Shown here piece by piece: positions 24,109 to 33,581 of a DNA stretch of 50,430 nt. The position numbers and the translations under genes were made by a program. This stretch comes from Deltaproteobacteria bacterium (GTDB taxonomy: Bacteria; Desulfobacterota; Binatia; UBA12015), in assembly GCA_016874795.1 (NCBI GenBank), contig VGTG01000020.1:1-50430 (forward strand). The letters run 5' to 3'. Below the pieces are notes generated by a model. The model saw nothing but the letters and a program-made list of their open reading frames with translations, was not told the DNA's origin and made no database searches. Each line of letters opens with the position of its first letter. Position 1 is the first letter of the stretch.

Positions 24109-24741
24109 TCAGCCTCCTTCGGAGGACGCAGCCGCGCGTGCGCGCGCGGGCGGGGTCGCAGGCGTGGAAGGCGCCTCGACGACCCGTCGCGGCGCGGGAG
24201 CGCCTTCCGCGATACGCTCGCGACGCCGGCGGCGCCAAGCGCCTCGGACGTGCAGCCAGGCGTTCGAGCAAAGGAGGTAGGCGAAGACGAACGGCGTCAG
24301 CACGGCTCCGGCGCCGTGCGCGCCGACGCCGAAGTGACGCGCGAGATCGCCGACGCGGAAGACGTTGATCGGGAAGTGATCCAGGCTGTCGTTGAACGCG
24401 ACGATGCTCCGCCCGCGCAGCAGGAACGGCAGGGTGCGGAGCCCCTGCGCTCCGCCGCGCGAGAGCTGCATCACGATCACGTCGAACGACCTCTGCCTGA
24501 GGCCGCGAACGATCGCAGCGCGCTCCTCCCAGCGCACGACGGTCACCTCGTCCGCGCGAAGAGCCGTGGCGAGCGCCGCGTCCTCGCCGCGCAGGAGCAC
24601 CGTGACGCGCGCGCCGGGAAAGAGATCCGCGAGCCGCTTGAGGACGCCCGACACGAGCCGCGTCGCACCCGTGTGCACGACGACGATGCTCCCCGTGGGG
24701 CCGTATCGCAGGCGGCGAAGGTACGCGAGCGGGCTAGGCAT
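24109..24741 (-). CDS. Glycosyltransferase-operon protein with Rossmann-like N-terminus
   Basis: 210 aa. The ATG at 24741 overlaps the end of the large glycosyltransferase gene by 8 bases, so it is in the operon. The N-terminal half (SIVVVHTGATRLVSGVLKRLADLFPGARVTVLLRG, then DVIVMQLSRGG, FLLRGRSIVAFNDSLDHFPIN) has the alternating strand-helix pattern and a late hydrophobic segment LTPFVFAYLLCSNAWL followed by many Arg. It resembles the N-terminal half of family 9-type heptosyltransferases or a glycan-anchoring protein, but the second domain is missing. The exact function is unknown. Confidence 0.65.
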   Translation of the reverse strand: MPSPLAYLRRLRYGPTGSIVVVHTGATRLVSGVLKRLADLFPGARVTVLLRGEDAALATALRADEVTVVRWEERAAIVRGLRQRSFDVIVMQLSRGGAQGLRTLPFLLRGRSIVAFNDSLDHFPINVFRVGDLARHFGVGAHGAGAVLTPFVFAYLLCSNAWLHVRGAWRRRRRERIAEGAPAPRRVVEAPSTPATPPARARAAASSEGG

Positions 24742-27700
24742 CGTGGTGCTCCGGAGTGCCGGTGCCGTTCCAACCATACGCGTCGAAGAGGCGCTTCGCG
24801 ATGGCCGGCCAGTCATATCTCTCCTCTGCGAAGCGACGCGCGCGCGCGACGAGAGCACGCCGCCGCGAAGCGTCGCGCAGGAGCGAGGCGACCGCCTCCG
24901 CGAACGCTTCGGGCTCGTCCGCGATCGCGATCTCGCCGCCCGCGGCGCCGAGTCCCTCTGCTCCCACGGACGTGGAGACGACGGGACAGCCGCTCGCCAT
25001 CGCTTCGAGGATCTTGAGCCGCGTCCCCGAGCCGCGCCGGATCGGCGCGATGAAGACGGTCGCGCGGCGGTAGTGCGAGGCCGTCTCCGGCACCATGCCG
25101 GCGACCTCGATGCCGGGATCGCGTGCGGCGAGATCCGTGATCGTCGGCGGCGGGTACGCGCCGACGACGCGGAAGCGCGCCTCCGGAACGCGAGCGCGGA
25201 TCTTCGGCAGGATCTCGTCGACGAAGTAGAGGACCGCCTCGACGTTCGGCTCGTGGCGGAAGAAGCCGACGAAGAGGATCGTCGCGGGCTCCGCCTCGTC
25301 CGGCGCGTACGGGAAGTCGCGGCAGGACACGCCGTTCGGGACGACGACGATCGGCTCCGGGTCGACGAAGCGTGCGAGCGTGTCGCGATCGGTATCGCTC
25401 ATCGTCAGCACGCGATCCGCGGCCTCGACCGCGCGCACCTCGTGGCGCAGCGTGCGGAGCCCGTCGAACCAGAGCCCGGCGCGGCGCCACGCGGAAGTCT
25501 CGCCCTGTCGCGCACGCGCCGCCGCAACGAACGTGATGTCGTGCTCGACGAGCACGCGCAGCATTCCGCGGCACGGCGGCGGCAGGTACTGCGCCATGTG
25601 CGTGTACTCGACCTGCACGACGTCGAAGTCGCGTTTCTCGAGCCAGGTCTCGATCACCTCGAACATCCGCGGCGAGAAGAAGCCCTGCGTCGAGACCGGC
25701 GAGAGCGGCCCGCCCGCACCGTGCAGGTCGCGCGGCAGGACCACGACGTCGCGGCAGAGGTCCTTCAGCACGGCGAGGCTCGCGGAGGTCACCTCGGCCG
25801 GCGTGTCCGCGAACGAGATCAAGGTCACGTCGCAGCGCTCGCGCATCTCGCGAATCAGGTTCAGCATGCGCACGGCGCCACCGTGCACCGCCGGGACCGG
25901 ACTGTACGGCGAGACGACGAGCACCTGCGGACGCTCGACCCCGCGGCGCTCGTCGGGATGGAAGCGCGCGCGATAGACGTGGCGGTAGCGCGAAAGGTTC
26001 AGGATCTCCTCGTCCCCGAGGACGCGCGGGATCGCGCGCTCGCGCCGGCGCGCACGCAACGTCGTCGGAATCTGCCGGACGAGCCCGGAAACCGACATCG
26101 CCGCGGCGCGCGTCCCCTCCTGCCGTCGCACGCGATGCGGCAAGAGGACGAGGCCGGCGAGGTGACGTCCGAGAAGCCGCCACGAATCGGTGTTCTTCCA
26201 GAGGAGTGCCGCGAGGTTCTTGACGAAGAACGAGTGGATCCGCGCCTCGCTCCAGATCCGTCGCGTCGTGCCCCGATGCTTGTGGTGGACGCGGCTTCGC
26301 GGCGCGAGGAGCGAGGCCCAGCCGCGCTTCCACGCGCGGTAGCCCAGGTCGACGTCCTCGATGTAGACCGGCGAGAAGACCGCCTCGTCGAAGCCGCCGA
26401 GAGCGAGAAAGCGCGAGCGATCGTACGCGGAGGCGCCGCCGCCCGCGAAGAAGATCGGATACGTCTTGTCCTCGTCGAAGCGATCGAGGTGGAAGAGCCG
26501 GACGAGGCCGCGGCGCAGCGTCGCGTGCACCTTGCCCGTCTCCCAGCGCGGCCGGTTCGGATCGATGAAGTCGATCTGGCACGAGACGCCGAAGACGCTC
26601 GGCTCCTCTCCGAACACGTCGAGAAGCGGCTGCACGAAGTCCGGCTCGACGACCATGTCGTTGTTCAAGAAGATGAGGACCGGGTTGCGCGCCTCGAGCG
26701 CGCCGCGGTTCGTCGCTCCGGCGAAGCCCTCGTTGCGGTCGAGCCCGACGAGCCGGATCGCGACCGGCGCCTCGGCCGCGAGCCGTGTCACCGCGTCGCG
26801 CGTGTCGTCCTCGCTCCCGTTGTCGACGACGAGGATCTCGTCCTCGGGATGCCCGTGCCGGCGCAGTGCTTCGACGAGAGGCGGGAGGCTCATGTCGAGG
26901 AGCTCGCGTCCGTTCCATGTCGGGATGACGACCGAGACGGGGTCGTCGGGACGGACGCTGCGCGCATCCCGCTCGTCGGCGGGCGCACTCGGCGCGCTCG
27001 GCGCCGGAAGGAGGTCGGCGAGCGCGAGCGCGATCCCGAGCACGGCCGCGACCGCCGCCGAGATCGCGGTCAGAACGAGCATCAGAACGAAGCTTCCGCC
27101 GCGCTTCACGAGACGGACGATCGTGCGCAAGCCGTCGCGGAGATCGCGTCCGAGGCCGCGCAGCGTGTTCGCACGTGCGACCTCTGCACGCGCCGCTTCG
27201 CGCGCCGCTTCGAGAAGGCGATCGTCGCGCTCCGCCGCGAGCGCTTCGGCGCGGCGCTCGGCCGCCTCCGCGCGCACCGACACGCGCGCAAGCGCGGCTC
27301 GGACACCCTCGAGATCCTCGATCGGCGGTCCGAGGTGCGGGCGGGACCGCTCCGCGCCCTCTCCCTCCGCGAGCGGCAGCGTCGCGTTGTGGAGGAAGAG
27401 GAACTCGTCCGTGCCGACCGGCATCGACTCGGAGACGCCCGCGACGAGGTAGCGGAGCAGGAACGCGAGGCCGTCGCCCTTCTCGGGCGCACCGTGCGCG
27501 CCCGCGCAGCGCCACACGCACACGCGGCCCCAAGACGCCTCCGCGCCGGGAGCGTGCGCGATGCGCAGGCGGAACGCGAACTCGCGGCCGCGCGAGCCCG
27601 CGATCGGACGGAACTCGAACCGCTGCCAGTCACAGTGCGGAAGCTGCGGCGCCGGTACGGCGACGCGCGCGAGCACGACCTCCTCCGGTGCGCCGTCGAG

Positions 27701-29128
27701 CGCGAGCAGCTCGAACACGAGCGTCGCGCCGTCGACCGGCGGCTCGACCCACATCAGGACGTCGACCTGGCAGAGGTGGTCGTACGTCGCGGTGAAGCGC
27801 TGCCACGGCGCGAACGTCGGACCGAGCGGCTCCGAGATGGCGCGCGCGTCGCTGACGAACGTCTCGGTGACGAGCGCCTGGTCCTTCGTCGGCACGGAGT
27901 CGCGCGTCGGCTCCGGCGAAGCGAACCACGCATCGCCCGCGCGGTCCGCGGCGTGGTGCGGATTCCGGCAGAACTCCGCGAGCGGCTCGATCACGCGCGC
28001 CCAGCGCAGGTCCCAGCGTGCGCTGACGACGCGCTCGGTGCGTCCTTCCGGATCGGGCTCGTCGAGCACCGCCTCGATCGCGTGCGCGACCGCCGCTTCG
28101 TCGCCCGGCGGCACGACGCCACCGAGACGCTTCTCCTCGACGAGCGACGAGAGCTCGTCCCCCTCCGTCAAGACCATCGGGCGCTCGCACCAGAGGTAGT
28201 CGAGGACGCGCGTGCGGAAGGCGAACTCCGATTCGACGCCGCGTCGATGCAGGCTGACGCCGACGTCCGCCTCGAGGATCCACTGGCCGCGCTCGTCGTA
28301 CGGCACCCAGTCGACGAAGGTCACGCCGTCTTCGAGGATCCCGAGCTCCTTCGCGAGGGCGCGCGCCTCGCGCGCGACCTTCATCTCGCCGATCTCGGGA
28401 TTCGGGTGACGCGCGCCGAGGATCAGCGTCTTGATCTCGGGACGGCGCGCGCGGAGCCGCGCCGTGGCGCGGACGAGCGTCAGCGGATCGAGCCAGTTCC
28501 ACATCCCTCCGGCCCACAGGACGACGCGATCGTCGCGTCCGATGCCGGGAAGGACGCCCTTCACGACCGGGCTCGGCGCCGGCTTCGGCGTCACGTCGGA
28601 GACGCCGAAGGGGACGAGATCGAGGAGGCGCTCGAGCGAAGGATCGGCCTCGTAGTTCGCGCGGTTCACGCGTCCCGCCGCCGTCAGCATGCCGAGCCAG
28701 AAGCTCCGCTGCCGCGCGCTCGCGCACAGGAAGAAGTCGCCGTGGCGCAGGTGATGCTCGAGCCAGCGGAGCGCGAGGAGCGCTCGACCTCCCGAGCGAT
28801 TGAAGTCCTCGCCGAATAGATCGAGGTTCGAGAGGACGAAGGGATCGTACAGATCGACGACGAGCGGCTTCTTCACCGCCGTCATCAGCTCGACGCGCCC
28901 GGACACGACGACGACGTCGGCGCGATCGACCCAGCCCGAGACGTCGCGCACGTCGGGCACGCAAGCGAGCTCGAGTCCCTCCTGCGGATGGATCGTGCTT
29001 CCCTCGGGCGCGACGAGCGTCACGCGAAGCCCGGCCTGCGCGAGCGCGCGCGACATCTCGAGCGCGCGGATCGCCGAGCCGGCCATGCGGTCGCCGAGCC
29101 GGTCCCAGGAGAGGACGAGGACGCTCAT
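24734..29128 (-). CDS. Giant glycosyltransferase: GT4 - accessory domain - coiled coil - membrane segment - GT2 - GT4
   Basis: 1464 aa, three glycosyltransferases in one chain. Residues 1 to about 400 are a GT4-like GT-B fold (VLVLSWDRLGDRMAGSAIRA; VVLWAGGMWNWLDPLTLVRA; E-rich C-terminal lobe). About 423-563 form a beta-sandwich with QVDVLMWVEPPV...DWQRFEFRPI shared with the two neighbouring genes. About 595-665 is an Ala/Arg/Glu coiled coil, and 675-705 a long hydrophobic stretch. About 726-1000 is a GT2 domain (VSVVIPTWNGREL, LVVDNGSEDD, FLNNDMVVEPDF, YIEDVDLGYRAWK). From about 1070 a second GT4 domain (VLVVSPYSPVPAVHGG; FRHEPNVEAV; IRRGSGTRLKILEAMA). ATG overlaps the upstream stop as ATGA. 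It probably adds several sugars in sequence to a surface glycan. Confidence 0.88.
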   Translation of the reverse strand: MSVLVLSWDRLGDRMAGSAIRALEMSRALAQAGLRVTLVAPEGSTIHPQEGLELACVPDVRDVSGWVDRADVVVVSGRVELMTAVKKPLVVDLYDPFVLSNLDLFGEDFNRSGGRALLALRWLEHHLRHGDFFLCASARQRSFWLGMLTAAGRVNRANYEADPSLERLLDLVPFGVSDVTPKPAPSPVVKGVLPGIGRDDRVVLWAGGMWNWLDPLTLVRATARLRARRPEIKTLILGARHPNPEIGEMKVAREARALAKELGILEDGVTFVDWVPYDERGQWILEADVGVSLHRRGVESEFAFRTRVLDYLWCERPMVLTEGDELSSLVEEKRLGGVVPPGDEAAVAHAIEAVLDEPDPEGRTERVVSARWDLRWARVIEPLAEFCRNPHHAADRAGDAWFASPEPTRDSVPTKDQALVTETFVSDARAISEPLGPTFAPWQRFTATYDHLCQVDVLMWVEPPVDGATLVFELLALDGAPEEVVLARVAVPAPQLPHCDWQRFEFRPIAGSRGREFAFRLRIAHAPGAEASWGRVCVWRCAGAHGAPEKGDGLAFLLRYLVAGVSESMPVGTDEFLFLHNATLPLAEGEGAERSRPHLGPPIEDLEGVRAALARVSVRAEAAERRAEALAAERDDRLLEAAREAARAEVARANTLRGLGRDLRDGLRTIVRLVKRGGSFVLMLVLTAISAAVAAVLGIALALADLLPAPSAPSAPADERDARSVRPDDPVSVVIPTWNGRELLDMSLPPLVEALRRHGHPEDEILVVDNGSEDDTRDAVTRLAAEAPVAIRLVGLDRNEGFAGATNRGALEARNPVLIFLNNDMVVEPDFVQPLLDVFGEEPSVFGVSCQIDFIDPNRPRWETGKVHATLRRGLVRLFHLDRFDEDKTYPIFFAGGGASAYDRSRFLALGGFDEAVFSPVYIEDVDLGYRAWKRGWASLLAPRSRVHHKHRGTTRRIWSEARIHSFFVKNLAALLWKNTDSWRLLGRHLAGLVLLPHRVRRQEGTRAAAMSVSGLVRQIPTTLRARRRERAIPRVLGDEEILNLSRYRHVYRARFHPDERRGVERPQVLVVSPYSPVPAVHGGAVRMLNLIREMRERCDVTLISFADTPAEVTSASLAVLKDLCRDVVVLPRDLHGAGGPLSPVSTQGFFSPRMFEVIETWLEKRDFDVVQVEYTHMAQYLPPPCRGMLRVLVEHDITFVAAARARQGETSAWRRAGLWFDGLRTLRHEVRAVEAADRVLTMSDTDRDTLARFVDPEPIVVVPNGVSCRDFPYAPDEAEPATILFVGFFRHEPNVEAVLYFVDEILPKIRARVPEARFRVVGAYPPPTITDLAARDPGIEVAGMVPETASHYRRATVFIAPIRRGSGTRLKILEAMASGCPVVSTSVGAEGLGAAGGEIAIADEPEAFAEAVASLLRDASRRRALVARARRFAEERYDWPAIAKRLFDAYGWNGTGTPEHHDA

Positions 29129-32013
29129 GGCGCTCCCACCGGTGCCGCGAACGTGCGGAACGCGAGGCTTCGTCCGGCGACGGCTTCGCCGCCGATCGTG
29201 AGCCCGCCCAGCTCGCTCGGCCCGTGCAAGAGGAGGATCTCGTTCCCGGGGACCGCCTCGGGCGCCCTCGCGCGCACCGACACCGTGCGGCCTGCGGAGT
29301 CGTCGAGCGGCTCGTCGAGCTCGACCGAGACGAAGTGGCGGTCGAGGAGATGCGCCGCGGGCACGCGGCGCGCGCCGAGCGTCGCTCCGCCCGCGTCGTG
29401 CACCGAGAGGAGGACGTCGTGGTCGTTCCGGCGCGCGTACGTTCCGACCAGCACGTCGACGCGCCGGAGCCCGTCGCGCGCGCACGTGAAGGTCTGCTCG
29501 ATCTCGCGGCCCGGACGGAGCGGCCCGCCCGATTCCGCTTCGAGCTGGTACGCGTCGTACGGACACGCCGGCGGCTCGAGCGCGACCTCCGAGCCCTCGC
29601 CCGCCTCGAGGTCGAGCGGCGCGGGGAGCGGACCCTTGCTCCCGTTCCGGCGATCGGCCGCACGGTCGACGATCTCCGCGAGGACCGACACGAGGTCGTC
29701 CGCTTGGGCCGCTGCATCGTAGCGCGCGCGCACGTCGCGACGCGCGGCCGCGCCGAGCGCTTCGCGAAGCGGCGCGCTCTCGACGAGGCGCCGGAGCGAC
29801 TCCTCCCACCCGCGTGCGTCGTCGCAGAGGAGCGCCGTCGCGCCCTCACGGCTCGCGCGCGAGAAGGCGGGCGCGTCGCTCGCGACCGTCGCGACGCCGA
29901 CCGCCGCCGCTTCGAGGAGCTTCACCTCGCTCTTCGCGCGATTGAACGGTCTCGCCGTGTCGAGCGGAGCGAGGTTCACGTCGAGCGCGGCGAGGCGAGC
30001 CGGAAGATCGCTCCACGCGACCCGAGCGAAGCGCTCGACCCGACCGCCGGCTTCGAGGCGCGGACCAGGCTCGACCGGACCGCCGAGCACGAGCGACACG
30101 TGGTCGAACCGATCGAGGACGCGCTCGAGCGCCGGCGCGACGAGCGCGAGATCCGCGTCGTGCGTGTCCGTGCCGGAGAAGAACCCGAGGCGGATGCGGG
30201 CGTCCTGCTTCCGGTCGCACCGGGCGCGTTCACGACGTGTGGCCGCCTCGGAGAGCGCCAGGAGCGCCGAAGAGAGCCCGTTCGGCACGACGAAGGCGGG
30301 AAGCCCGAGCTCGCGCGCGGCCTCCGCGAGCTCCGGCGTGCTGCCGAGGAACGCGTCCGCGGTGGCGCAGCTTCGCGCGTACGCCTCGACGCTCGCGCGA
30401 TAGCCGGCGGCGATCTGCGCGTCCGCGTGCTCGAGCGCCGGTGCTTCGCCGAGGAGATCGGGACGAAACACGAGGTCGTCGGCGGAGAAGACGACGGGAA
30501 CGCGACCAAGACGCGCCTCGGCCACGACGGTCGCGACGACCGCGCCGAACGGAGCCCGGTTGAGGACGATCACGTCCGCGCGCCGCGCGGCGCGAACCGC
30601 GCGCACGTCGGAGTGGAAGAGCACGTCGGACGCGATGCCCGCGAGCGCGAGCCGCTCGACGAGGTTCCAGACGCGGTAGCGGAGCGGCGCTCCGTCGATC
30701 CCCGAGAGGAAGAGGACGCGCAGACCGCCGAGCCGGCGTCGCGCCGCAGCTCCCGATCGCGTCGCCGACTCTCGCGTCGCCGACTCTCGCTTCGCCGACT
30801 CTCGCTTCGCCGCTTCGCGCACGACCTCGCGGTACATCACCTCGCTCGCGAGCGCTTGCTCCCGCGGCGTGATCGTCCGGAGCGGATCGCGGCGCGCGCC
30901 CTCGCGGAGGCCTTGCAGCAGATCGCGATCACGAGCGAGCCGGCGCAGCGCCCCGGCGAGCGCTTCCGGCGAGCCCGCAGCGAAGACGAGCCCGTTCCGC
31001 CCGCTCTCGACGACCTCCTCGGGACCGCCGCAGTCCGAGGTCACCACGGGACAGCCTCGAGCGAGCGCCTCGCGTGCGACGAGCGAGAACGACTCGCGCA
31101 TCAGGGACGGGATCACGACGACATCGGCCGACGCCACGACGTCGTCGATCTCGGCGGCCGGAAAAGGCGGATGGAGCTCGAGCCGCTTTCCGAGCCTCTC
31201 CGCCCACGGCGCGGCCTCCTCCGCGGACACGGCGCGGCAGTCGAGGACGAGCTCCGCCGCTTCCGCTTCGAGCGAAGCCACCGCTTCGAGCAGCACCGCG
31301 AGGCCCTTGGCGTGGTTCCCCGCGCCGCCGACGTAGAGGAAGCGAACCGGTCCGGCGGACGAGCGCACGACCTCGCGCGCGGGCGGCGGCAGCCCGTTCT
31401 CCTGCACGACGGCGTCCCGCACGAGGCCGTTCGCGACGAGGCTGTCGCGAAGAAACCTCGACGGCACGACGACGCGGGCAACGGACGCAAGCGCCGCTTC
31501 GAGGATCGCGCGACGCGCCGCGAAGTCGATCTCGTGGTGACCGGAGCAGCTCTCCGGGCGGACGCGCGCGGGGCAGATCGTGCCCTCGGGCGAGAGCCGG
31601 AAGAGGCACGGGCAGAGCCACCACCAGTCGTGCATCGTCACGACCGCTGGAACGCCCGCGTCCGCGGCGACGCCGAGAATCCCCGCGCCGATCCCTTGCA
31701 GACTGTGCACGTGCACGACGTCCGGCCGCGTCTCGGCGAGGAAGTCGGCGAAGACCGCGTTCGCGTCCGGGCTCCAGTGGCTCTCGGGCGACCAGGGATG
31801 GAGTGCGCCGCCGACGTTCACGCGCCAGACCGGACAAGCGCCGACGCGCTCGCGACGCACGGCACCGGTCGGCTCCGCGGCGGTCGCGCGGCCGCTCACG
31901 ACGAAGCTCGTGTGACCGAGCGCGACGAGCTCCTCCGCGAGGCGCTGGCAGACGAGCGTCGCGCCGCCCTGGAACTCGGGCGCGTAGAGCGCCGTCACGT
32001 GCGCGATCCTCAC
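29125..32013 (-). CDS. Double-domain glycosyltransferase with C-terminal accessory domain
   Basis: 962 aa from GTG overlapping the previous stop (GTGA). The first half is a complete GT4 enzyme: RIAHVTALYAPEFQGGATLVCQRLAEEL, VVHVHSLQGIGAGIL, MHDWWWLCPC, RFLYVGGAGNHAKGLAVLLEA, IPSLMRESFSLVAREALARGCPVV with the E-x7-E of GT4. A linker of ESAKR/ESATR pentapeptides follows. The second half starts LRVLFLSGIDGAPLRYRVWNL, continues GFFSGTDTHDADLALVAPALE, and ends with a beta-sandwich with RRVDVLVGTYARRNDHDVLLSV. This second half is a paralogue of the gene upstream. It likely acts in the same glycan pathway, on the cytoplasmic face. Confidence 0.87.
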   Translation of the reverse strand: MRIAHVTALYAPEFQGGATLVCQRLAEELVALGHTSFVVSGRATAAEPTGAVRRERVGACPVWRVNVGGALHPWSPESHWSPDANAVFADFLAETRPDVVHVHSLQGIGAGILGVAADAGVPAVVTMHDWWWLCPCLFRLSPEGTICPARVRPESCSGHHEIDFAARRAILEAALASVARVVVPSRFLRDSLVANGLVRDAVVQENGLPPPAREVVRSSAGPVRFLYVGGAGNHAKGLAVLLEAVASLEAEAAELVLDCRAVSAEEAAPWAERLGKRLELHPPFPAAEIDDVVASADVVVIPSLMRESFSLVAREALARGCPVVTSDCGGPEEVVESGRNGLVFAAGSPEALAGALRRLARDRDLLQGLREGARRDPLRTITPREQALASEVMYREVVREAAKRESAKRESATRESATRSGAAARRRLGGLRVLFLSGIDGAPLRYRVWNLVERLALAGIASDVLFHSDVRAVRAARRADVIVLNRAPFGAVVATVVAEARLGRVPVVFSADDLVFRPDLLGEAPALEHADAQIAAGYRASVEAYARSCATADAFLGSTPELAEAARELGLPAFVVPNGLSSALLALSEAATRRERARCDRKQDARIRLGFFSGTDTHDADLALVAPALERVLDRFDHVSLVLGGPVEPGPRLEAGGRVERFARVAWSDLPARLAALDVNLAPLDTARPFNRAKSEVKLLEAAAVGVATVASDAPAFSRASREGATALLCDDARGWEESLRRLVESAPLREALGAAARRDVRARYDAAAQADDLVSVLAEIVDRAADRRNGSKGPLPAPLDLEAGEGSEVALEPPACPYDAYQLEAESGGPLRPGREIEQTFTCARDGLRRVDVLVGTYARRNDHDVLLSVHDAGGATLGARRVPAAHLLDRHFVSVELDEPLDDSAGRTVSVRARAPEAVPGNEILLLHGPSELGGLTIGGEAVAGRSLAFRTFAAPVGAP
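30767..30811. repeat. 15-bp tandem repeat in the glycosyltransferase linker
   Basis: Three copies of gactctcgc(t/g)tcgcc at 30767, 30782 and 30797, preceded by a degenerate copy ending at 30766. Read on the minus strand they encode the pentapeptide unit (K/T)RESA. The unit length of 15 bases keeps frame, so copy-number change would lengthen or shorten the linker without breaking the protein. Confidence 0.8.
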
Positions 32014-33581
32014 GCCGCTTCCCGTGCGAGGGCGCGCGTCCACGGCGCGAAGCCTCGGAGCGCGAGCGGACCCGCAAGCGCTTCGCCGTTCGAGCGCGCG
32101 GCCGGAAGCGCCCCGTCGACACCGGTCGAGAGCCCGAACGACGCGGCATTCCCCGCACCGGCTCCCGTCGTCTCGAGAACGAGCGTGTACTCGTGTCGCG
32201 ACGAGTCCGGGAGCGGCTCGAACTCGAACGAGGTCCACGCGCGATCCGGCAGCTCGGCGGCTCTCCACGACGTCTCGCGCAACGTGCATCCGTCCTCGCC
32301 GACGAGGCGAACGACGACCGTGTGCGAGAGCGCCTGACCGTAGGTGACGGCGTGCAGGTCGATGCGCTCGAGCCCGTCGTGCTTCGCGCGAAGGCGCTGC
32401 TCGAAGCGTTCCTCTCCGAGCGGCGGGCTCACCGCGGTGGCGGACGTCTCGTCGAGAGCGGGACAGGCGTCGGGCTCGAGCGCGCGGCGCGCCACCGCCT
32501 CGTGCCACCGGGATTCCGGCAAAGATTCTGCCGCCCGCTTCTGGACGCGGTGCAGCACCGCATCGAGCTCGCTCGCGCGCTCGTTCTCGCACCAGCGCTC
32601 GTCGAGGTCGGCCCAGGCGCGTCGTCCGAGCGCGACGCGGAGCTCCGGCTCGCGGACGAGCTCGGTCAAGCGAGCGTGCCAGTCCTTCACGCTCTCCGCG
32701 AGCACGCCGTTCCTTCCGCCGTGGATCGCTTCGGAGAATGCCGGCGTCGGGCTCGCGACGGTCGGCGTCTCGACCGCGGCGGCTTCGAGATACTTGACCT
32801 CGCCCTTCGCGCGCGCGAACGGGCTCTCGGCGACGAGCGGAGCAAGGTTCACGTCGATCCCGGCGAGCCATTCGAAGAGCTCGGTCCACGGCACGCGCGG
32901 GCGGTGCTCGATTCGCGCGGCGAGCGGTACGAGGTCCTCCGGAAGAGCGACCGGACCGAGAAGGGCGAGCCTCGAGCGCGGATGCTCCTGCAGGAGGTCG
33001 GCGAGCGCGGGCGCGATCGAGGCGAGGTCCGCGTCGTGCGTCGGCGTCCCCGAAGCGTAGCCGAGAACGATCTGCTCGGGGTCGCGAACCGCCGCTTCCC
33101 GCGCCCGCTCCGCGATCGTACGCTCCGGCTCGGAGAGCGCGTTCCGGTGGAGATACGCGCGCCAGCCGAGGGAGCGCGCGTGCTCGACGAGCGGCGCCGT
33201 CGGCGCGATCACCGCGTCGCACGCTTCGAGCGTCGCACGGTAGCGCTCGACGCCTTCGATCCAGAGAGCGCGCTCGGCCGCCGGGAGGTGATCGAGCGGC
33301 GGGAGAAGCTCGGGCGCGGGATCGAAGATCAGATCGTCGATCGCTCCGATCACGATGCGGTCCGCATCACGGGCTCGCTCGACGAGCGCACGCGTCCGGT
33401 CGTTCCAGGGCACGCGATAGAAGAACAGCGCGTCGTGGGCCTCGAGCCCGGCCGGAAGATCGGGATCGACGAACGAGCGGACCGTCGCCTCGCCCCCGCC
33501 GAGCTGCACCTGCCGTGCGCGATGCAGCACCTGATACCGGTGGCAGGCACCATCGATCCCGCTCACGAAGAGCACCCGCAT
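32010..33581 (-). CDS. Glycosyltransferase with C-terminal accessory domain, first gene of operon
   Basis: 523 aa from ATG 33581. MRVLFVSGIDGACHRYQVLHRARQ, then GAIDDLIFDPAPE, LGYASGTPTHDADLASIAPALADLLQEHPRSRLALLGPV and GIDVNLAPLVAESPFARAKGEVKYLEAAA make a GT-B enzyme of the type found in O-antigen and polysaccharide clusters; S-x-F-A-R-A-K-x-E-V-K-Y-L-E-A is its acceptor/donor loop. The last 120 residues (GLERIDLHAVTYGQALSHTVVV; AWTSFEFEPLPDSSRHEYTLVL) form the beta-sandwich seen in the two downstream enzymes. It starts the operon; the divergent Nudix gene lies 150 bases away. Confidence 0.85.
   Translation of the reverse strand: MRVLFVSGIDGACHRYQVLHRARQVQLGGGEATVRSFVDPDLPAGLEAHDALFFYRVPWNDRTRALVERARDADRIVIGAIDDLIFDPAPELLPPLDHLPAAERALWIEGVERYRATLEACDAVIAPTAPLVEHARSLGWRAYLHRNALSEPERTIAERAREAAVRDPEQIVLGYASGTPTHDADLASIAPALADLLQEHPRSRLALLGPVALPEDLVPLAARIEHRPRVPWTELFEWLAGIDVNLAPLVAESPFARAKGEVKYLEAAAVETPTVASPTPAFSEAIHGGRNGVLAESVKDWHARLTELVREPELRVALGRRAWADLDERWCENERASELDAVLHRVQKRAAESLPESRWHEAVARRALEPDACPALDETSATAVSPPLGEERFEQRLRAKHDGLERIDLHAVTYGQALSHTVVVRLVGEDGCTLRETSWRAAELPDRAWTSFEFEPLPDSSRHEYTLVLETTGAGAGNAASFGLSTGVDGALPAARSNGEALAGPLALRGFAPWTRALAREAA

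Follow-up and report, generated by a model that had tools for sequence, protein, structure and literature searches.

A shared module of predicted beta-sandwich fold in three adjacent glycosyltransferase proteins of a Binatia bacterium, with a proposed role in holding glycans

The window, i.e. the whole stretch of 50,430 nucleotides that was analysed, encodes on its minus strand three adjacent glycosyltransferase (GT) proteins, P0001, P0002 and P0003, each of which carries one copy of a common accessory module (m1, m2 and m3, respectively; Table 1). Neither the three copies (at E up to 1) nor the module stretch of their relatives match any Pfam or NCBIfam model, and on sequence comparison the module appears to be an uncatalogued domain family of glycan-assembly enzymes. 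With slightly better than even confidence, we read it as a carbohydrate-binding-like beta-sandwich by which such enzymes would hold the acceptor or the growing glycan, probably lipid-linked, near the active site of the host enzyme. Accessory binding modules are well known on polysaccharide-degrading enzymes and are poorly described on the synthesising ones; the present module suggests, in testable form, how glycan assembly by several enzymes may keep hold of its product, and its recurrence on GT-A, GT-B and GT-C enzymes, methyltransferases and small membrane proteins makes it a handle for finding glycan-assembly clusters.

Gene layout and domain content

Table 1. Features of the P0001-P0003 locus (positions in the window; residue numbers refer to the protein concerned)
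Feature	Position	Strand	Size or residues	Remarks
P0001	32010..33581	-	523 aa	GT4-like domain and C-terminal module m1
P0001 GT4-like catalytic region	32532..33581	-	~1-350	Glyco_trans_1_4, best stretch 191-309; AKGEVKYLEAA at residue 258
Module m1	32043..32468	-	P0001, 372-513
P0002	29125..32013	-	962 aa	GTG start; GT4, second GT4-like domain (P0001 paralogue), C-terminal m2
P0002 first GT4	30814..32013	-	~1-400
P0002 second GT4-like domain	29629..30726	-	~430-795
Module m2	29143..29565	-	P0002, 817-957	Motif T[YF]xRxN kept as TYARRN
P0003	24734..29128	-	1464 aa	GT4, m3, heptad-patterned spacer, hydrophobic segment, GT2, GT4
P0003 N-terminal GT4	27974..29128	-	~1-385
Module m3	27443..27868	-	P0003, 421-562	Followed by conserved FLFLHN stretch at 576-581
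P0003 spacer	27095..27379	-	584-678	Heptad pattern; 92-205 aa in orthologues
P0003 hydrophobic segment	27008..27094	-	679-707	In 16/16 orthologues examined
P0003 GT2	26264..26947	-	~728-955	Motifs NNDM and EDVDLGY
P0003 C-terminal GT4	24779..25897	-	~1078-1450	Closest NCBIfam model TIGR03087, below its cut-off
210-aa protein	24109..24741	-	210 aa	No Pfam match; overlaps P0003 end

The open reading frames and boundaries given by an earlier, sequence-only reading of this DNA were confirmed. Start and stop overlap by about 4 bases at the P0001/P0002 and the P0002/P0003 junctions, which suggests that the three genes form one operon. Genes downstream of it include those for a glutaredoxin and IleRS; upstream ones encode a NUDIX hydrolase and a sensor kinase, and among the neighbours that were scanned neither an exporter nor a polymerase gene was recognised. 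The 210-aa protein encoded after P0003, present at this place in at least 11 orthologous loci, resembles half a GT-B fold by eye and probably belongs to the same pathway.

Three enzymes had been counted as three glycosyltransferases; the count of enzymes stands, and by Pfam they comprise six GT domains, not three, namely one GT4-like domain in P0001, two GT4 domains in P0002, and a GT4, a GT2 and a further GT4 domain in P0003. The GT4 and GT2 assignments are based on profile matches above cut-off, and the sequence motifs expected of these families are present. Given one putative operon and six predicted GT domains, the 'assembly line' that had been suggested for P0001-P0003 is plausible. As part of the main reading as a whole, and with the same narrow leaning towards it, we take the six GT domains in three polypeptides to build one surface glycan, their presumed product.

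The P0003 orthologues (n=16) share the order of module, spacer, conserved hydrophobic segment, GT2 and GT4. The heptad pattern of the spacer was found in most of the 16 by a test which took the best window of each orthologue without a dedicated coiled-coil predictor and is no more than indicative. The hydrophobic segment may be a membrane anchor or hairpin; since a single crossing would leave the N-terminal GT4 outside, without nucleotide sugar, a hairpin or monotopic anchor is likelier. P0003 is probably a membrane-attached polymerising enzyme (GT2-GT4), in which the module and the coiled-coil-like spacer would hold the N-terminal GT4 at a distance. The GT2-GT4 half is also found without the module in acidobacterial and other genomes, which shows that this enzyme need not carry it. 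Furthermore, in one relative of the same class the module flanks the P0003-type GT4 (36% identity) from the opposite side; the pairing of GT4 and module thus outlasts reordering.

Sequence similarity of the three module copies

By BLASTP, m1 and m2 align at 35% over 152 columns (E 1e-12), m1 and m3 at 31% (E 2e-8), and m2 and m3 at 30% (E 2e-4); the corresponding Smith-Waterman z values are 19, 11 and 4.7, and 0 of 2000 shuffles scored as high. Chance similarity of the three copies was ruled out by these shuffles together with orthologue-wide profiles. The sequence-only reading was therefore right to see a similar domain in all three enzymes at better than chance level, placed C-terminally in P0001 and P0002 and internally in P0003; its size of 110-130 residues was too low, the module being nearer 140-150 residues. 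The motifs read from the best-kept copies are less general: the third copy is without the T-Y part of the first motif (G-L-x-R-[IV]-D-[VL]-x-[VA]-x-T-Y), and the second copy has FVSVELDEPL instead of WxxFEFxPL.

P0001 and the second half of P0002 are paralogous over their whole length (37% over 535 residues). The modules m1 and m2 therefore count as a single occurrence, one duplicated GT-plus-module unit, and m3 is a separate association. A profile search for a sequence relative of known structure returned matches at E ~1 only (a xylanase domain and transthyretin-like proteins).

Predicted fold

Models of copies 1 and 3 were computed with AlphaFold2. The m1 model (55 window and relative sequences; pLDDT 95.5, pTM 0.90) has eight strands, and the m3 model (16 orthologues; pLDDT 80.8, pTM 0.80) has eight corresponding strands and extra N-terminal ones. 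The strands follow in the same order and both models retrieve the same PDB chains over equivalent ranges, and on these two grounds a common fold was predicted, an outcome that the sequence-only reading had named as support for one shared, non-catalytic accessory module.

The chains retrieved by both models include the phi812 baseplate (9euj_G; Z 13.5 for m1 and 12.9 for m3), the Douge fibre (8zdp_v; Z 11.5 and 12.2), the lectin-like domain of Cwp84 (Z 9.7-10.0 and 9.7), the carbohydrate-binding module (CBM) CBM15 (1gny; Z 8.0 and 8.8, with residues 6-149 of m1 and 14-159 of m3 placed onto chain residues 91-241/242), the PHR domain 3no8, and esterase domains. Other CBM matches are to carbohydrate-esterase CBMs (7toh) and to alginate-, porphyran- and fucose-binding CBMs. 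The module may share the fold of CBM15, CBM6-type and esterase CBMs, which match both models at Z 8-10 over 105-135 residues, with 4-12% identity and without a sequence-family match. Against beta-sandwiches of CBM15/CBM6 type both models score Z 7-10, values that common beta-sandwich arrangements also reach; viral structural domains outscore the CBMs (Z 13 vs 8-10), and domains with other roles, such as PHR domains, APC10 and the furin P domain, are among the matches as well. As modelled, the fold class thus includes CBMs and domains that bind no sugar alike, and the fold alone is no proof of function. In the CAZy sense of a CBM, the module is predicted to be a compact, non-catalytic beta-sandwich attached to a carbohydrate-active enzyme; by the Pfam and NCBIfam models it belongs to no existing CBM family.

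The top matches of the m1 model (window 32040-32486) are viral: the phi812 baseplate, the PBCV-1 capsid protein (DUF5901), a mycobacteriophage central fibre and Gordonia phage minor tail proteins. It is possible that the module and these viral domains share a host-glycan-binding fold; common descent with viral tail, baseplate and capsid domains was considered and not adopted (identity 7-16%).

Evolution and conservation

In a tree of 86 sequences, m1 and m3 each form a single clade (support full or nearly so), the m2 copies fall into the versions of two families, and m1 adjoins m2; a single clade of m1, m2 and m3 in this lineage was neither rejected (AU p 0.19) nor demonstrated. Compared with close orthologues, m2 and m3 are 60-65% identical (m3 60-63%), the GT domains 60-84% and the P0003 spacer 36-46%; m2 is conserved as strongly as its GT domains and m3 is conserved above the spacer. 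Identity this far above that of the spacer indicates constraint, and the module is under selection.

The polar motif T[YF]xRxN is present in 9 of 11 m2 copies of the window's family and in none of the six copies of the second family's (f6) version, four of which keep a T-x-x-R form; it is absent from m1 (0/15) and m3 (0/16). Beyond the three groups of this lineage it occurs in 13 of 38 copies, recurring in unrelated proteins of other phyla. The m3 copies have an invariant set of W, F, F, P, S and a later W (16/16), and each of m1, m2 and m3 has separately conserved residues of its own. The earlier suggestion that the three enzymes bind the same glycan, lipid or scaffold is not supported by these differences, which make related but different ligands likelier than one. 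Judging from conservation, the copies have probably diverged too far for the same glycan to be assumed for all three; they would recognise related, probably different parts of one glycan.

Distribution and host proteins

The window's genome (6.27 Mb) has three module matches, all in the P0001-P0003 operon. The module was found in all 13 other searched members of the same family, at least once and in most cases two or three times, in proteins that match P0001-P0003 in size; a second family of the class had three copies in each of 6 genomes, and a third had one copy each in 2 of 6 genomes. The module was absent from the other families of the class that were sampled. Matches were found in at least 9 of 296 further sampled genomes from the rest of the phylum, in at least 9 of 247 genomes of a group drawn around an acidobacterial genome, and in at least 9 of 246 drawn around a planctomycete genome; these counts are lower bounds, as the best 12-15 candidates per genome were scored. 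A record titled Klebsiella pneumoniae (L089, CAMBZJ010000005.1) carries the operon at 67% identity together with the IleRS gene of this lineage's locus, and is almost certainly a mislabelled MAG.

The hosts outside the class comprise GT2/GT4 proteins, WsaF-like GTs, methyltransferases, radical-SAM proteins, GT87, PMT_2 and YfhO-type enzymes, and small proteins in which the module stands between two membrane helices (TM-module-TM); in other genomes the module's company is almost always glycan enzymes. For example, in locus L143 the TM-module-TM gene and a GT4 gene overlap, next to genes for a GT2 and a further GT4. By hydropathy, the module follows 8-9 membrane helices in the GT-C enzymes and lies between the two helices of the small proteins; elsewhere it is attached to soluble GTs, and hence it is probably found on both sides of the cell membrane.

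Several clusters have neighbouring module-bearing ORFs (four in L076, three in L138, two each in L139 and L140), and this supports the sharing of the module by neighbouring glycan enzymes as a recurring habit. The four consecutive ORFs of L076 (G286:C104) carry divergent copies, two on GT2-GT4 enzymes and two on methyltransferases, one of these with radical-SAM/SPASM. The planctomycete cluster L138 (G620:C168) encodes a GT2-GT4 enzyme and two enzymes of YfhO type, each of which carries the module, as well as a sulfatase and a methyltransferase; the modules of the YfhO-type and GT2-GT4 enzymes are presumably on opposite sides of the membrane. In L081 (G078:C158), a TM-module-TM protein is encoded amid genes for an RseP-like M50 peptidase, Dxr and IspD, away from glycan genes.

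Proposed function

The clustering of module genes can also be read as the mark of a protein-protein docking or oligomerisation domain, which would join the three GT proteins, or in other phyla membrane enzymes, into a complex without binding sugar. In the window's genome all three copies, and only these, are in one operon, the clusters with neighbouring module ORFs add to this pattern, and such beta-sandwiches often mediate protein contacts (PHR and APC10 are among the fold matches). However, several relatives have the three genes scattered over contigs, or one of the three was not found, and many genomes have a single copy. In addition, a scaffold would need its partners on the same side of the membrane, but the GT-C and TM-module-TM copies are predicted on the opposite side from the cytosolic GTs, even within the L138 cluster, and could not dock with them. 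We regard docking as unlikely, though as a serious contender. The hosts are predicted to act on glycan on both sides of the membrane, so the glycan or its lipid carrier is the common element, and binding of a lipid-linked glycan fits the distribution better than a cytosolic scaffold.

Quite improbable, in our view, is a structural appendage that stabilises or spaces the adjacent GT and has spread by duplication and domain shuffling without a specific ligand. Such an origin would suit m1 and m2, which arose with their GT by duplication, and conserved positions that are partly hydrophobic core, as well as the lack of a common conserved polar site among the three copies; but the module is joined to unrelated folds (GT-A, GT-B, GT-C, methyltransferase, radical SAM) as an N-terminal, C-terminal or internal domain, stands alone between membrane helices in the small proteins, and carries its polar motif in unrelated proteins of other phyla. 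Binding of a membrane lipid or polyprenyl carrier instead of sugar is very improbable: many hosts sit in the membrane or use lipid-linked substrates, and the module adjoins membrane helices in several, but m1 and m2 form the C-termini of proteins in which no membrane segment occurs consistently, and sugar-binding folds are among the structural matches.

The preferred reading, a glycan-holding module, has evidence against it as well: the best structural matches are viral, there is no match to a Pfam CBM family, a few copies are located off glycan genes (as in L081), and T[YF]xRxN is absent from m1 and m3. We infer sugar binding together with the membrane sidedness, the common product and the role of each GT. 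A wider version of this reading, which we advance tentatively and hold to be rather unlikely in full, is that the module represents an undescribed, widely scattered glycan-binding family on cytosolic and extracytoplasmic enzymes of one pathway, through which successive enzymes across the membrane hold the same lipid-linked glycan; the three proteins of the window would then be a self-contained initiator/terminator-ruler-polymerase set.

Comparison with known systems

No literature on this domain in glycosyltransferases was found beyond the precedents of O7 ORF6 and of AftD and YfhO. A CBM-like domain was first found in a terminator enzyme of O-antigen synthesis in a 2024 study (PMC11231755): the terminator-polymerase ORF6 of K. 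pneumoniae O7 consists of an N-terminal catalytic domain, a CBM-like beta-sandwich (an Ig-like CBM, modelled before the coiled coil, with its role left open), a spacer resembling a coiled coil, and a pair of GT modules at the C-terminus (PMC11231755). The domain order of P0003 is like that of O7 ORF6, WbbB (O12) and WbdD/WbdA (O9a/O3), the likeness being one of order (GT4, module, heptad spacer, membrane segment, GT2, GT4); by this analogy P0003 resembles a terminator-ruler-polymerase. Its N-terminal domain is a GT4, in contrast to the methyltransferase-kinase or Kdo transferase of the terminator-ruler-polymerase enzymes.

Extracellular carbohydrate-binding domains have also been proposed for AftD and for S. 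aureus YfhO (PMC8035078). These GT-C enzymes have a beta-sandwich-type accessory domain thought to hold the acceptor polymer, a role like that proposed for the present module, relatives of which are found in YfhO-, GT87- and PMT_2-type proteins. Whereas the AftD and YfhO domains are extracytoplasmic, the hosts in the window are soluble or monotopic GT-A/GT-B enzymes, and their module must be cytosolic.

Wzt_C (PF14524), the CBM of O-polysaccharide ABC exporters, is likewise a CBM-like module on a glycan-assembly machine. Unlike Wzt_C, the module is attached to GTs and not to an ATPase, and m1-m3 have no PF14524 match. The window also differs from ABC-dependent O-polysaccharide systems in that it has no ABC exporter and no match to PF14524; the three PF14524 matches of the genome are on contigs C6 and C52. 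Wzy_C-type proteins are encoded elsewhere in the window's genome, on contigs C5, C47, C52 and C69.
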